The notes under the pieces are model-generated. The model had not been told where the DNA came from, made no database searches, and saw only the letters and a program-made list of their open reading frames with translations. A program made the translations under genes and the position numbers. From Mesorhizobium loti (GTDB taxonomy: Bacteria; Pseudomonadota; Alphaproteobacteria; Rhizobiales; Rhizobiaceae), in contig AP017605.1 in the NCBI GenBank assembly GCA_002356515.1, positions 930,001-994,000 on the forward strand: DNA of 64,000 bases, read 5' to 3'. Below, in pieces: positions 52,206 to 58,071 of this stretch. Positions within the stretch are counted from its first letter, which is position 1. The number at the start of each line of letters is the position of its first letter.

Positions 52206-52316
52206 TTTTCAGGGATAGGCGAGCCACGCGCGCGGCGCAATCACGCCCGAATTTGATCATGCTATGCTGGCAGAGTTATAGAGGGTTTGGAGTATCAGGG
52301 CGGACACCAACGACAA

Positions 52317-55300
52317 ATGACCTTTGTCGAAACCTCGGGACGCAATTTTCTAGCGCGGATGTGGCTGACGGCTTTCGTCGCCGCGCTGCTTTGTCTTGCC
52401 GCGACGGCGCTTGCTTTTGCCGAGACGAAGAGCCTCAAGGGCGTGGCGCTGATCATCGGCCAGTCGAATTACCAGCACATAGCCGCCCTGCCCAACCCGG
52501 CCAATGACGCCCGCGACATGGCCAAGATGCTGACCGACCTCGGCTTCGACGCCCGCAACGTCACCGATCGCGACGCCGCCAAGCTGAAGCGCGACCTCGA
52601 ACGCTTCGTCGAGGATGCCGAGGGCGCCGATGTCGCCTTCATCTATTACTCCGGCCACGGCATCGAGGCCGGCGGCGAGAACTATCTGGTTCCGGTCGAT
52701 GCCGATGTCTCGTCGCTGAAGGATGCCAACAGCGCGCTGGTGCCGATTTCCGCCGTCATGGATGAGTTGAAGAAGACCGTGCCGGTGACGATCGTGCTGC
52801 TCGATGCCTGCCGCACCAATCCGTTCCCGGCGGACGCCGTGGTGCGCCGGGCGCCGACCGCTTCCGCCGAGCCCATCGGCGCCGGCGGGCTGGAACCCGT
52901 GCGTGGCGCCAAGGCGCTCGCCAATGCGTCGGCGCAAGATGCGAGCCTCGGCACGGTGGTCGGCTTCGCCGCCGAGCCGGGCCGTCCGGCGCTGGATGGT
53001 GCGGCCGGCGAAAACAGTCCTTACGCGGCGGCTCTACTGCGCCATCTCGCCGCGATGAAAGGCACGGAGTTCGGATCCGTCATGCGCATGGTGACCGAGG
53101 AAGTCTATCTCGACACCAAGGCCAAGCAGCGCCCCTGGGTCAACGAAAGCCTGCGCCGCCTGCTCTATTTCGGCGTCGCGCCGCCGGAGCCGACAGGTGA
53201 TGACGGGCTGATCACCGGCGAAAGGCGGCAGCTGCTCTTGACCATTTCCGACCTGCCCGATCCGAAGCGGGCGCAGGTGGAGTTGGCCTCGCTGCAGGAC
53301 GGCGTGCCGCTCGATGCGCTCTATGGTGTGCTGAGGGCGCTCGGCACAGACAAGATCCCCGAGGACCCGACCGACCTGCAGAAGGTGCTTGGCGCCCAGG
53401 CCGAGCGCCTGAAGAAGATGTTGTCGGAACGCGCGGCACTGCGCACCGACGATCCGGAGATCAAGCGGCTGGTCGCGTCCGCCGACAAGGCCATCGGCCA
53501 GGGCGCCATGGTGACGGCGCGCAAATTCCTCGATGACGCGGTCGGCAGGGTCGAGCAAAACAGCGGCGCTGTCGACGACGCCGAGGAACTGGTCAGGCAG
53601 AAACGCATCGCCGACGCCGCGATCTATGCCAAACGCGCCGATGCCGCCGCATTGGTCTTCGACTACAAATCCGCCGCCAACGACTATGCCAAGTCCTTCT
53701 CGCTGGTCGAGAAATGGGACGACAAGCTGCGCTGGAACTACAAGAACCAGGAAGCCGAGGCGCTCAACGCCTACGGCTACGCCACCGGCGATCTCGATGC
53801 ATTGCAGCACGCAATCGAAGCCTATCATGTCATCCTGAACTTCATTCCCAATGGCGAGCGGAATCGCGACTGGGCGATCACCCGCAACAACATGGCGGTG
53901 GTGCTGCAGACCATCGGCGAGCGCGAGACCGAGACCGCGCATCTCGAGGAAGCGGCACAGATCTTCCGCGATTCGCTTATCGTTTTCGAGCGCGAGAAGG
54001 ACGACCCCAACTGGGCGGCCGCGCAGAACAATCTTGCCAATGTGCTTTTGAAGATCGGCGAACGCGAGAGCGATCCGAAGCGCCTCAATGAGGCGGTGGC
54101 GGCGATGCGCGCGGCGCTGGAAAAGCGCCCCCGAGACAAGCTGCCGCTCGACTGGGCCGCGTCGCAGAACAATCTCGGCCTGGCGCTCTATGCGCTCTCC
54201 GAGCGTGAAACCGCCGGCGAGCATCTGAAGGACGCGGAAGCCGCCTACCGGCTGGCGCTCGAGGAATACACGCGCGAGAAGACGCCCGTGGAATGGGCGA
54301 TGGTCGAGAACAATCTCGGCAACACGCTGGTGACGCTTGGCATCCAACTCAACGACAAGGCCAAGATCAACGAGGCGGCCGATGCCTTCCGCGCCGCGCT
54401 GAAGGTCAGAACCCGCGAGACCTTCCCGGTCTCCTGGGCGACAAGCCGGCTCAACCTTGGCAACGCGCTCAGCGGTGCCGCCCGCTTCGACATGGGCACG
54501 GACACGCTCGAAGAGGCCGCCACGGCCTATGACGACGCGCTGACGGTGTTTACCCGCCAGCGCTTCCCGATGGATTGGGCATCCGCCCAGAACAATCTCG
54601 GCTCGATCTACCAGACGCTTGGCCAGCGGACCCGCGACGCGGCCAGGCTCGAACAATCGGTGGCAGCGTTCCAGGCGGCGCGGCAGGTCTATGTCAGGCG
54701 GAAATTCCCGCTCGACTGGGCCATGTGCTACTACAATCTCGGCAACACGCTGCAGCTGCTGGGCGGCGTGACGGACAAGCCCGAGCATTACAGCGAGGCG
54801 GTCGACGCCTACGGCAATGCGTTGCGCGAGTACAAGCGCGAGACCAACCCGCGGCAATGGGCCCTGGCCCAGGCCGGCCTCGGCTCGACGCTGCACTGGC
54901 TGAGCATGAGCAGTGCCGATCCCAAGATCCTGCGGGATTCGATCGCCGCGCGGCGGGCAGCCCTCGAAGTACTGACCATCGAAACAGCACCGATCGACTG
55001 GGCCAACGCCCAGAACGGCATCGGCATGAGCCTGCTCAATCTCGGCAATCTCGAACGGACCGGCAAATATCTCGACGAGGCCGAGGCGGCTTTCACGGCG
55101 ACGCTGAAAGTGTTCACCAGGGAAAGCCAGCCCTTGCAGTGGGCCTTTGAACAGAACAACCTTGGCGACATCCACTGGAACCGCGCCACCTATGGTGGCG
55201 GCAAGCCGGAATATCTCAAAGCCATCGAATTCTTCGAAAACGCCAAGCAGGGTTTTACCGAAGCCGGCTACACCGTCCCAATTCCGCTGACCGACCAGAA

Positions 55301-55337
55301 GATCGATCTGGTGAAGAAGCAAATCGCCAAAAAGTGA
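52317..55337 (+). CDS. Exported caspase-like (peptidase C14) protein with TPR array
   Basis: About 1006 residues from the ATG at 52317. A signal peptide or anchor (WLTAFVAALLCLAATALAFAE) leads into a caspase-type domain: GVALIIGQSNYQHIAALPNP, then the catalytic His114 in YYSGHGIEAGG and Cys165 in VLLDACRTNPF. A helical linker follows, then from about residue 470 roughly ten TPR-like repeats with recurring DWA..QNNLGN and TRE segments. The complete His/Cys dyad implies an active metacaspase-like protease with a protein-binding scaffold. Target unknown. A TTG at 52287 is a less likely start. Confidence 0.9.
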   Translation: MTFVETSGRNFLARMWLTAFVAALLCLAATALAFAETKSLKGVALIIGQSNYQHIAALPNPANDARDMAKMLTDLGFDARNVTDRDAAKLKRDLERFVEDAEGADVAFIYYSGHGIEAGGENYLVPVDADVSSLKDANSALVPISAVMDELKKTVPVTIVLLDACRTNPFPADAVVRRAPTASAEPIGAGGLEPVRGAKALANASAQDASLGTVVGFAAEPGRPALDGAAGENSPYAAALLRHLAAMKGTEFGSVMRMVTEEVYLDTKAKQRPWVNESLRRLLYFGVAPPEPTGDDGLITGERRQLLLTISDLPDPKRAQVELASLQDGVPLDALYGVLRALGTDKIPEDPTDLQKVLGAQAERLKKMLSERAALRTDDPEIKRLVASADKAIGQGAMVTARKFLDDAVGRVEQNSGAVDDAEELVRQKRIADAAIYAKRADAAALVFDYKSAANDYAKSFSLVEKWDDKLRWNYKNQEAEALNAYGYATGDLDALQHAIEAYHVILNFIPNGERNRDWAITRNNMAVVLQTIGERETETAHLEEAAQIFRDSLIVFEREKDDPNWAAAQNNLANVLLKIGERESDPKRLNEAVAAMRAALEKRPRDKLPLDWAASQNNLGLALYALSERETAGEHLKDAEAAYRLALEEYTREKTPVEWAMVENNLGNTLVTLGIQLNDKAKINEAADAFRAALKVRTRETFPVSWATSRLNLGNALSGAARFDMGTDTLEEAATAYDDALTVFTRQRFPMDWASAQNNLGSIYQTLGQRTRDAARLEQSVAAFQAARQVYVRRKFPLDWAMCYYNLGNTLQLLGGVTDKPEHYSEAVDAYGNALREYKRETNPRQWALAQAGLGSTLHWLSMSSADPKILRDSIAARRAALEVLTIETAPIDWANAQNGIGMSLLNLGNLERTGKYLDEAEAAFTATLKVFTRESQPLQWAFEQNNLGDIHWNRATYGGGKPEYLKAIEFFENAKQGFTEAGYTVPIPLTDQKIDLVKKQIAKK

Positions 55338-55986: not shown

Positions 55987-55994
55987 CGGCGCGG

Positions 55995-56022
55995 CACTGC
56001 GTCTCCAACGTTGGACGCAGTG
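55995..56022 (+). terminator. Hairpin downstream of the histidine phosphatase
   Basis: cactgcgtc and gacgcagtg form nine pairs, and the centre ccaacgttgg extends the stem with one bulge. It lies nine bases after the stop codon. There is no strong U-run, so termination is likely but not certain. Confidence 0.5.
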
Positions 56023-56215
56023 TTGCCGAAATGCCACCACTGAAAGAAGCCGCAAATTCGCCGCGACAATGCCGCTTGCGACAACCCGTCGCAGGCTCTA
56101 TAGCCGCGCTCCCGGTCACGAGAACCGAAGTGAGCACAACGGTTGGAGCTGTCGTCTCCGCCCGTGCAGGCGGCTTTGCCGCCCTGTATACGGCGCCGCT
56201 TTGGGGATTGGGATC

Positions 56216-56291
56216 GCGGATGTAGCTCAGTCTGGGAGAGCGCCGGATTTGGATCCGGAGGTCGCAGGTTCGAATCCTGCTGTCTGCACCA
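56216..56291 (+). ncRNA. tRNA-like RNA 1 (Pro-TGG-like, abnormal anticodon loop)
   Basis: A full cloverleaf can be drawn: acceptor gcggatg/tgtctgc (7 pairs, three of them G-U), D-arm gctc/gagc, T-arm gcagg-ttcgaat-cctgc, discriminator A and encoded CCA. The anticodon stem ccgga/tccgg leaves a six-base loop (tttgga), or eight if the stem is shortened; neither is the standard seven. A scanner might label it tRNA-Pro(TGG), but a normal decoding role is doubtful. It precedes a second tRNA-like sequence and a slipin gene. Confidence 0.65.
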
Positions 56292-56362
56292 CGGATAGCT
56301 CAGTTTGGTAGAGCATCAGATTTAGGTTCTGATTGTCGAAGGTTCGAATCCTTCTCCATTGG
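56289..56362 (+). ncRNA. tRNA-like RNA 2 (TAG anticodon, class I shape, fused to RNA 1)
   Basis: D-arm gctc/gagc, anticodon arm tcaga-tttaggt-tctga and T-arm gaagg-ttcgaat-ccttc are all intact. The anticodon would be TAG (Leu), but the variable loop is five bases, not the long arm of leucine tRNAs. The acceptor stem forms only by using the CCA of RNA 1: cca-c-gga pairs with tcc-at-tgg. There is no encoded CCA of its own. Two mature tRNAs therefore cannot both be cut from one transcript, suggesting a single double tRNA-like RNA. Confidence 0.6.
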
Positions 56363-56719
56363 CCTGATAAGCCAGCACCCTGCCAGGTGTTATCTGAAAA
56401 CGGTCCGGGGACCGGAATGCTGAAGACCTGACGGACGGCCGAAGCCTTCGGGCCAAGGCCGTTTCGAAAGGTCCGACGCCATCGGCTCGCGGCCAGGCCC
56501 GCGGTGATGGTCAAGGCGCAGCGTCGCCGGCAAGGCAGGCCAAGGCTTGCCGAGCCCGCTTCACTGCCCCGCGATCCGCTCCCGAAGGCCCGCCACGGAT
56601 TGATGCCACCGGTCCTCGGATCATTCGTGCCCGGACCATGACGACGTTGAAACGAGAAACGAAGGGAAGATCGACGCATGAGTTGACGCCTCGCATGGGG
56701 CCATGCCCGACAGGAGTAA
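56363..56719 (+). other. Structured, apparently non-coding stretch before the slipin gene
   Basis: No convincing gene spans these 360 bases. Several hairpins are visible: gataa-gccag-cacc/ggtg-ttatc with a five-base bulge (56366-56394), ggtcc/ggacc (about 56402-56412), and ggccgaag/cttcgggcc (about 56436-56455). Near 56713 an AGGAG stands just before the expected slipin start. It may be an untranslated leader or part of a structured RNA continuous with the tRNA-like pair. Confidence 0.4.
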
Positions 56720-57838
56720 GGACGCGAGCGCGTCCTCGTCAGGGAAAACGAACGTGCCCTCACCCTCTACAAGGGGGAGATCAAGGCCGTCCTGCTGCCG
56801 GGTGAGCACTGGCTCGCCAACCGGCGCGGCAGCCTGGAAGTATCCCGGCACGATCTGAAGAACCCGGAATTCGTTTCGGCGTACGAGAAGGCGTTGTTCG
56901 ACAAGCTCCCGGATGTGGCCGCGCGTCATTTGACCGTCGTTCGCACCGGGCGCACGGATGTCGCAGTCATCGAGCGTGATGGAAACCTGCACGCCGTTCT
57001 GGCGCCGGACCGCAAGCTGGTGCTGTGGACGGATGCCGGTCCGTGGAAGGTCACGATGGTCGACACTTCGGCCGACCTCGCCATCGATCCGGCGGTCATG
57101 CGCCGGCTCGGCCAGGCCCGGAAGGCGGAGCTGATGTCGGTCCATCCGGTCGTCGACGGCCAGGCCGGACTGCTGTTCGTCGACGGTGTCCTGGTGCGGA
57201 CGCTTGCCGCGGGCGTGCATGGCTTCTGGAACGTCGGACGCATGGTGCAGGTGAAGGTCGTCGACCTAAAGCGCCAGTCGCTCGACGTCGCCGGGCAGGA
57301 AGTGCTGACCAAGGATCGCGTGACGATCCGCGTCAACATCGCCGCCGAATACCGGGTCGTCGACCCGGTCAAGGCGGTGAGCGCTGTGAAGGACTTCTCC
57401 GAGGCCCTCTACCGCGCCCTCCAGTACGCCTTCCGCAAGACGCTTGGCGGGCTGACGCTTGACCAGATCCTTGAAAAGAAGGTGACGGTCGACGAGGAAG
57501 CCGCTGCCAAGGTCCGTGCCGACATGGCCGAGATCGGCGTCGAGGTCAGCGATATCACGCTCAAGGATGTCATCCTGCCGGGCGAGATGCGCGAGATCCT
57601 CAACCAGGTGGTGTCGGCCGAAAAGCAGGCCGAGGCCAACGTCATCCGCCGCCGCGAGGAGACGAACGCCACGCGTTCGCTGCTCAACACCGCCCGGGTG
57701 ATGGCGGAGAACCCGGTGATGCTGCGGCTGAAGGAGCTCGAGGCTCTGGAAACCATCGCCGGCAAGGTCGAGCGGCTGACCGTCCACAATGGAACGGGCG
57801 GACTGCTGAACGACCTGGTCAAGCTCCGTGACAGCTGA
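56720..57838 (+). CDS. Slipin (stomatin/SPFH-band 7) family protein, no canonical start codon
   Basis: Homology-like sequence begins RVLVRENERALTLYKGEI, just after an in-frame TAA at 56717-56719, and continues through GEHWLANRRGSLEVSRHDL into an SPFH domain (VKVVDLKRQSLDVAGQEVL, RVTIRVNIAAEYRVVDP) and a C-terminal coiled coil (LNQVVSAEKQAEANVIRRRE). About 372 residues. No ATG, GTG or TTG is available until the TTG at 56894, which would delete the first 58 residues. AGGAG lies upstream, and a perfect 8-bp hairpin covers the expected start. Slipins occur in bacterial RNA-repair gene clusters. Either initiation is unusual or the gene is damaged. Confidence 0.75.
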   Translation, partial: GRERVLVRENERALTLYKGEIKAVLLPGEHWLANRRGSLEVSRHDLKNPEFVSAYEKALFDKLPDVAARHLTVVRTGRTDVAVIERDGNLHAVLAPDRKLVLWTDAGPWKVTMVDTSADLAIDPAVMRRLGQARKAELMSVHPVVDGQAGLLFVDGVLVRTLAAGVHGFWNVGRMVQVKVVDLKRQSLDVAGQEVLTKDRVTIRVNIAAEYRVVDPVKAVSAVKDFSEALYRALQYAFRKTLGGLTLDQILEKKVTVDEEAAAKVRADMAEIGVEVSDITLKDVILPGEMREILNQVVSAEKQAEANVIRRREETNATRSLLNTARVMAENPVMLRLKELEALETIAGKVERLTVHNGTGGLLNDLVKLRDS

Positions 57839-57887
57839 TGCATGTCGCCCAAAAGTGGTTCCCGGTTTTGGGAAAACGACATGCATC
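57837..57887. repeat. REP-like palindromic element, copy B
   Basis: Outer arms atgcatgtcg/cgacatgcat and inner arms cccaaaa/ttttggg surround gtggttcccgg. Compared with copy A at 45686-45732 the inner stem changes ccg to ccc with a matching change on the other side, so pairing is preserved. It starts on the slipin stop codon. Confidence 0.8.
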
Positions 57888-57915
57888 GAAACAAAGACTA
57901 ACCTGACGTAATGGG

Positions 57916-57947
57916 AAGGGCCGCCGACTTGACCGGCGGCCCTTCTT
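57916..57947 (+). terminator. Intrinsic terminator downstream of slipin
   Basis: An 11-bp perfect stem, aagggccgccg/cggcggccctt with a seven-base loop, followed by cttctt. It separates the slipin transcript from the acpXL cluster. Confidence 0.75.
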
Positions 57948-58071
57948 GCGTTTCTTGGGCACGCTTCCCATCTGCGCCCGGACTATCAGGCCTTTTCCTG
58001 CCGGGAAAAACCGATTAGACAGCGCCCAAACAAGATGCGGACAGATTCCGCCCGCAAAGAAGGAAAAGCCC

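Follow-up and report, generated by a model that had tools for sequence, protein, structure and literature searches.

The locus and its features

The window analysed here is a stretch of 64,000 nucleotides from Mesorhizobium loti (GCA_002356515.1, contig AP017605.1, positions 930,001 to 994,000). Two tRNA-like elements follow each other on its plus strand, and the main finding of this work is that this pair forms the core of an approximately 600-nt structured leader upstream of a slipin gene. The first element (RNA1, 56216..56291, plus strand), delineated with ARAGORN, Rfam, covariation and reading by eye, comprises acceptor, D and T arms, a 6-nt “anticodon” loop and an encoded CCA at 56289-56291. 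The second (RNA2, 56292..56359, plus strand), delineated with ARAGORN, Rfam and covariation, has D and T arms and an anticodon arm with a 7-nt loop; GGA/UCC is the solid part of its acceptor and there is no CCA at its 3' side. With the Rfam tRNA model (gathering score 29) the stretch 56216-56288 reaches 60.3 bits and 56289-56362 reaches 57.2 bits. ARAGORN calls the first element tRNA-??? with a two-base anticodon “tg” and the second tRNA-Leu(tag).

A first-pass annotation made from the letters of this DNA had ascribed to RNA1 a complete acceptor, D-arm, T-arm and encoded CCA together with a loop of six or eight, never seven bases, and to RNA2 a TAG anticodon without the long variable arm. In the window this description proved accurate: by eye, the stem CCGGA/TCCGG of RNA1 encloses the 6-nt loop TTTGGA (or four base pairs enclose an 8-nt loop), and RNA2 presents the 7-nt loop TTTAGGT and no long variable arm. 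It did not extend to the larger leader or to the slipin gene. Measured against a decoding tRNA, RNA1 has the 7-bp acceptor and the CCA and lacks the 7-nt anticodon loop, while RNA2 forms five of seven acceptor pairs and ends without CCA.

Several further elements surround the pair on the same strand. A promoter-like sequence, TTGCGA-17-TATAGC (56076..56104), was recognised by eye and is conserved in the same-genus rows; it would place the start of the leader near 56108. A consensus scan for a sigma-70 site found none at the leader, and the putative promoter rests on the reading by eye. At 56160..56195 pattern search and covariation delimit a 5' element, CCGUGC-[GGCGGC UUU GCCGCC]-CUGUAUACGG, whose class consensus is GGUGCG...CGUAUGCC, capped by a covarying triloop hairpin and located approximately 25 nt before the first mimic. 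Its strict pattern occurs in 28 of 60 non-Mesorhizobium loci (mean in background windows 0.15) and its relaxed pattern in 41 of 60 (background 3.35), both patterns having been drawn up after some of the 60 scored loci had been read. In 35 rows that were selected for having the element there are 37 double-change cells against 9.9 after shuffling; six pairs show double changes (as many are reached in 64 of 500 shuffles), and in 12 of the 35 rows the outermost pair does not form.

On the 3' side of the pair a covarying hairpin, UGGC-CUGAUAA-GCCA (helix 9, 56360..56374), is followed by a second one, GCACC/GGUGU (56375..56391), in which the same-genus leader alignment shows no double changes. A 3' domain (56402..56622) is closed by a 14-bp helix (56402-56415/56609-56622) predicted by folding, with one pair showing double changes (12 cells) and 0.4% of cells unpaired. 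The alignment of this domain comprises 32 of 37 same-genus leaders: the patterns used to locate the ends failed on four, and one was a duplicate. The predicted fold of the window's leader is better than those of all 100 shuffled sequences (z -2.24).

The slipin (SPFH/Band-7) gene occupies 56729..57838 on the plus strand (profile match 56729-57835), and the Pfam family Band_7 matches the translation of 56894-57835 with 103.7 bits. The region of the start codon is missing in this strain, so that the first in-frame common start is TTG at 56894. At the corresponding place (56716-56735) an ATG is found in each of the 19 further same-genus loci whose sequence extends to it, and by eye its absence from the window reflects a deletion of about 28 nt. 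Judged from these sequences, the unit may be decaying in the window's own strain, with intact copies in relatives. Leader and gene lie in a presence/absence block with approximate limits at 55987..57907, which extends from a SixA-like phosphatase gene to an acyl-carrier-protein region and was recognised by comparison with genomes lacking the unit.

Conservation and covariation of the pair

A search of 61 genomes recovered the pair with its upstream DNA from 21 of the 37 that belong to the genus, counting the window's own, and from one that belongs to a different family. A 22-row alignment contains 27 double-change cells compared with 9.5 in shuffles. A covariance model of the pair was then run on 397 genomes of the order and the best 30 loci were fetched (scores of 86 bits or more; four were already known), which leaves outside this survey a second match of 91 bits in one genome (G266, contig C332) and matches below 86 bits. 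The model also matches ordinary tRNAs, with a background of up to about 76 bits, so a weak match alone is no proof of a mimic. A set of 44 rows, drawn from 12 families, has 98.2% of its cells paired and double changes in 30 of 42 pairs; the 291 double-change cells compare with 63.9 in shuffles and at most 61 in slid controls, for an alignment that was fitted to the covariance model and leans towards structure. The covariation score of the pair lies above all 500 shuffles. Alignment A3 was made without L004 and L019, the duplicates L034, L035, L037 and L040, and the ordinary tRNA tandems L057 and L063.

Because its helices are held by compensatory changes across these 44 relatives, the pair is evidently maintained and not in decay, as far as can be read from sequence comparison. 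This bears directly on the simplest alternative, namely that the locus contains two ordinary or decaying tRNA genes. In favour of it the tRNA models match above their cut-off, positions 56221-56273 of RNA1 are 91% identical to the tRNA-His of the source genome over 55 nt, and 14 of 51 named loci from a wider collection described below contain one complete-looking tRNA (three-letter anticodon, at least six acceptor pairs and CCA), a finding for which we raised our estimate of this alternative slightly. Besides the compensatory changes, it is opposed by the loop of RNA1, which differs from seven bases in 38 of the 44 relatives, by RNA2, which is complete in one of 44, and by the linkage to slipin. 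Furthermore, the source genome owns tRNA-Leu(TAG) and tRNA-Pro(TGG) genes elsewhere, which together with the non-canonical RNA1 loops supports the non-decoding reading. The 47 tRNAs called in 44 stretches around the other tRNA matches of this genome all end in CCA. Altogether, ordinary tRNA genes are a very unlikely explanation.

The 51 named loci gave 69 ARAGORN calls in their leaders, and the 14 complete-looking ones are distributed one per locus, never two; in several of these loci it is the first element that looks complete. Homologues with both elements complete, which the first-pass annotation had named as speaking against its own reading, were thus found in none of the 51. Its proposal of a bipartite tRNA mimic unlike two decoding tRNAs stands as regards conservation and the unfitness of the window's copy, but “unfit” does not describe all homologues. 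What the evidence supports is a conserved, bipartite tRNA mimic whose copy in the window is a poor match for decoding; that one transcript could not yield both RNAs in mature form is plausible.

The first element

The loops of RNA1 range from 2 to 9 nt, and seven bases are reached in six of the 44 relatives; once extra pairs are closed, four is the commonest size in the 44 rows. Its CCA end is present in 34 of 44 and absent in 10. The likeness to tRNA-His suggests that RNA1 may have been derived from, or exchanged with, a real tRNA gene. One Mesorhizobium lineage (L017, L018, L020 and L021) keeps the pair even though its RNA1 lacks the CCA and has a D-loop of 5 nt and a shortened T-arm.

In the 44 rows, which are mainly Hyphomicrobiales, position 3:70 of RNA1 is occupied by G-U in 28 and by C-A in four; among the 47 tRNAs of the source genome G3-U70 is found in two, both of them tRNA-Ala. 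C-A at 3:70 is an active substitute for G-U. RNA1 could accordingly be read as an alanine-acceptor mimic that, like the tRNA-like domain of tmRNA, would be charged by AlaRS without an anticodon. With that domain it shares elbow and acceptor without a decoding loop, as well as the G3-U70 pair common in Hyphomicrobiales. However, G3-U70 is not general: in a wider set of 68 rows that includes Mesorhizobium, some of them weak and poorly aligned, G-U occurs in only 21, and G-C, T-A, A-T and C-G are common. In addition, the CCA is absent in the 10 rows mentioned, the real tRNA nearest to the window's RNA1 is His and not Ala, and tmRNA was called neither by ARAGORN nor by Rfam in the window, nor by Rfam in 14 diverse loci. 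We regard this minor rival as unlikely.

The second element

The situation of RNA2 is reversed. Its loop has 7 nt in the window and in 40 of 44 relatives, and among these 40 loops U33 is found in 35, a purine at position 37 in 39 and U36-A37 in 30, with 15 different anticodons. In the 32 same-genus leaders, positions 34 and 35 rank first and third among the most variable sites of RNA2, with entropies of 1.7 and 1.4 bits, whereas the stem beside them is at 0.0. A loop shape that is kept and a stem that is invariant, combined with variable anticodon letters, make it look as if RNA2 were selected to present a canonical anticodon loop with changing letters.

The acceptor of RNA2 is much less regular. 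At least six of seven acceptor pairs are formed in six of 44 relatives, the CCA is present in two and both together in one. The first-pass annotation had assumed that this stem forms by borrowing the CCA of RNA1. Part of this is borne out, since five of seven pairs form in the window and pair 1:72 in 19 of 22 rows, but pair 2:71 forms in none of the 22 and pair 4:69 in one. Covariation of the shared stem amounts to a single pair of the seven: at 1:72 A-T replaces C-G in two of 22 rows, which is a double change. The TGG near RNA2 belongs to the covarying hairpin just 3' of it (U-A replaced by C-G in six of 22), and pairing of CCA with TGG shows zero double changes in the 22-row alignment. Given how rarely pairs 2:71 and 4:69 form, the shared acceptor was largely abandoned, and the solid remainder in the window is the GGA/UCC segment. 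Across the order, comparison of the sequences shows folds conserved through compensatory changes, an RNA1 mostly without a 7-nt loop and an RNA2 with a canonical, hypervariable loop, mostly without a mature 3' end.

Coupling to slipin

Within the genus a slipin of at least 88% identity accompanies the pair in 20 of 21 genomes, and in the remaining one the pair is located at the end of a contig; the 16 genomes without the pair all lack such a slipin. Every one of the 21 same-genus loci has the SixA-like phosphatase gene close to the unit. In nine of 12 unit-lacking genomes the distance from the end of the phosphatase gene to the acyl-carrier-protein region is 31-192 nt, compared with 1.9-2.0 kb in the window; the other three are G028, which retains a 46-residue slipin tail, one genome with a gap of 723 nt and one without a phosphatase match. 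At the level of the order, slipin follows directly downstream in 27 of the 30 fetched loci; one of the others ends with its contig and two are ordinary tRNA tandems by sequence.

ORF clustering in the window and 20 loci of other genera recovered slipin in 14 neighbourhoods, and in six more it recovered opposite-strand ORFs at the same place; slipin at these 21 places had already been confirmed separately. Apart from slipin and its antisense ORFs no cluster extends to more than four of the 21 neighbourhoods (the ORFs were clustered and are unannotated in 20), and further conserved operon partners were therefore dropped. Carriage by mobile elements was likewise given up, because no near match of the unit was found among plasmids and a phage search with the unit gave one weak partial protein match only.

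The coupling extends far beyond the order. Eighty named loci were collected as the best matches to a slipin alignment built from leader-bearing loci, which biases the following counts upwards and makes them no unbiased census. Judged by record title, they come from Alphaproteobacteria, from Gammaproteobacteria such as Dyella, Lysobacter and Competibacter, from Bryobacterales among the Acidobacteria and from one verrucomicrobial assembly. In 75 of them the model finds a same-strand match no more than 1000 nt upstream of slipin; the remaining sequence of these 80 loci holds seven same-strand matches, and three matches are antisense to the element. Four of the five misses have less than 500 nt of sequence upstream, and the fifth (L191) has 3000 nt and no match. 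The leader scores at least 70 bits in 49 of the 80. The two-mimic form is not universal, since the RNA2 part alone is matched in eight loci and the RNA1 part alone in three. Among 385 genomes of the class, five besides the window's contain a strong slipin and all five show a model match (56-119 bits). None of six Band-7 paralogues at 29-32% identity has such a match; two slipins at 40% identity are split, a 42.5-bit match lying some 540 nt upstream of one and none being found for the other.

Leader and slipin are thus inherited together in the genus and co-located widely. That they are kept together in so many distant bacteria suggests that RNA and slipin work as one unit. The main rival to a separate RNA partner is a cis-regulatory leader: RNase P, RNase Z, CCA-end enzymes or stress nucleases would recognise or cleave its tRNA-like folds and thereby set the stability or translation of the slipin mRNA. 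Such a leader would yield the same synteny as an RNA partner: the RNA lies on the sense strand upstream of slipin in the above 27 of 30 and 75 of 80 loci, and a simple terminator scan of the plus strand between RNA and slipin found none. The CCA encoded by RNA1 in 34 of 44 relatives points in the same direction. Nevertheless, a leader so large and elaborate, with hypervariable anticodon letters, would be needless for a simple processing signal, and RNA1 is unmatched in some distant loci. We consider cis-regulation a serious possibility that stays clearly short of an even chance.

Relation to known systems and putative function

Burroughs and Aravind reportedly described in 2016 SPFH/Band-7 modules paired with a “novel tRNA-like molecule” and proposed a scaffold-RNA cofactor pair. 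The locus has the same constituents, a tRNA-like non-coding RNA beside a Band-7/slipin gene. The leader–slipin unit is akin to this proposal, and a link between Band-7 proteins and tRNA-like RNA has reportedly been put forward before. Its own features are two tandem mimics, one of them mostly without a 7-nt loop, a leader of approximately 600 nt with its own 5' element and no linkage to RtcB in the genus. In a literature search, none of the titles and beginnings of abstracts that were listed describes a tRNA-mimic pair together with slipin. OLE RNA is another large structured RNA just upstream of the gene for a membrane protein, OapA. In the present unit the protein partner is slipin instead, and in the 14 diverse loci tRNA is the sole Rfam family at its cut-off.

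The most familiar tRNA mimics of bacteria are the Y RNAs. YrlA of Salmonella is encoded in an operon with Rsr (Ro60), its likely protein partner (PMC7790460), and the present unit resembles this arrangement in that a non-coding tRNA mimic is encoded beside its likely partner gene. It differs in its slipin partner and its cloverleaf-like tandem mimics. The first-pass annotation had pointed to tRNA mimics such as the YrlA-type Y RNAs and their ties to RNA-repair systems, and a bacterial Y RNA of an Ro60/RtcB repair system was considered as a rival. A YrlA match does exist over the junction of T-arm and D-arm (E 0.00023), but T-arm followed by D-arm is offered by any tandem tRNA junction, and the score of 34.3 bits is half the Rfam cut-off of 69 (RF02553), which is reached in none of the 14 diverse loci either. 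The search of the source genome for TROVE/Ro60 gave no match, the control matching in one of 14 genomes. This identity was therefore dropped; for the source genome it is largely refuted and its probability is close to negligible. A tie to RtcB in the genus fell with it, since RtcB is found in four of 21 unit-bearing genomes (one of the four being a 93-residue fragment) against five of 16 unit-lacking ones. The source genome itself has RtcB matches at two loci. One of them, L031 (G000:C1:3040265-3041284), far from the window, combines an RtcB-like gene with an adjoining release-factor-like ORF in which a GGQ motif was seen by eye.

Slipin has also been associated with RNA repair in Anabaena, where the slipin alr0740, rtcB and the trn tRNA operon are under the single repressor TrcR, which is relieved by translation-blocking antibiotics (PMC10272220). 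Both cases thus have slipin together with tRNA functions, in Anabaena by co-expression with tRNA and RNA-repair functions under translation stress; the difference is that TrcR is a repressor acting in trans. By analogy, and indirectly, this regulon would fit a translation-damage role for the unit.

Our preferred reading, to which we assign about an even chance, is that the leader is transcribed and acts as slipin's non-coding partner, displaying tRNA surfaces to tRNA-acting enzymes and taking no part in decoding. The RNA would associate with slipin in a slipin-RNA particle or as a membrane-tethered RNA, and its mimics would hold out the tRNA elbow and the anticodon, either as bait or as a platform, to enzymes such as anticodon nucleases or processing enzymes. 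The variable anticodon letters of RNA2 suggest bait for anticodon nucleases in particular. A more speculative and rather improbable extension is that, in a widespread class of RNA, the two mimics serve as interchangeable bait at a slipin membrane scaffold, where anticodon nucleases (toxins or phage-response enzymes) would cut RNA2 and the cut RNA would alter slipin output or assembly, giving a tRNA-damage alarm that evolves by anticodon swaps. If the partner reading is true, bacteria of at least two proteobacterial classes and beyond bear a large tRNA-mimic RNA tied to a membrane scaffold. The unit would then be a test case for the proposed RNA cofactors of Band-7 proteins, and the parts of the leader are defined well enough for direct knock-out, pull-down and probing.

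Neighbouring observations

Immediately downstream of the slipin gene, positions 57830-57959 give a sub-threshold match to the Brucella sRNA CI27 (47.5 against 59.8 bits). About 60 nt from 57839 onwards are repeated in relatives, with up to at least 43 matches per genome, and by its sequence this stretch looks like a dispersed intergenic repeat. On the other side of the unit, 52287-55337 encodes a protein of 1016 residues that carries a caspase-like domain (Peptidase_C14) and, slightly below the cut-off, a tetratricopeptide match; its gene adjoins the phosphatase gene.
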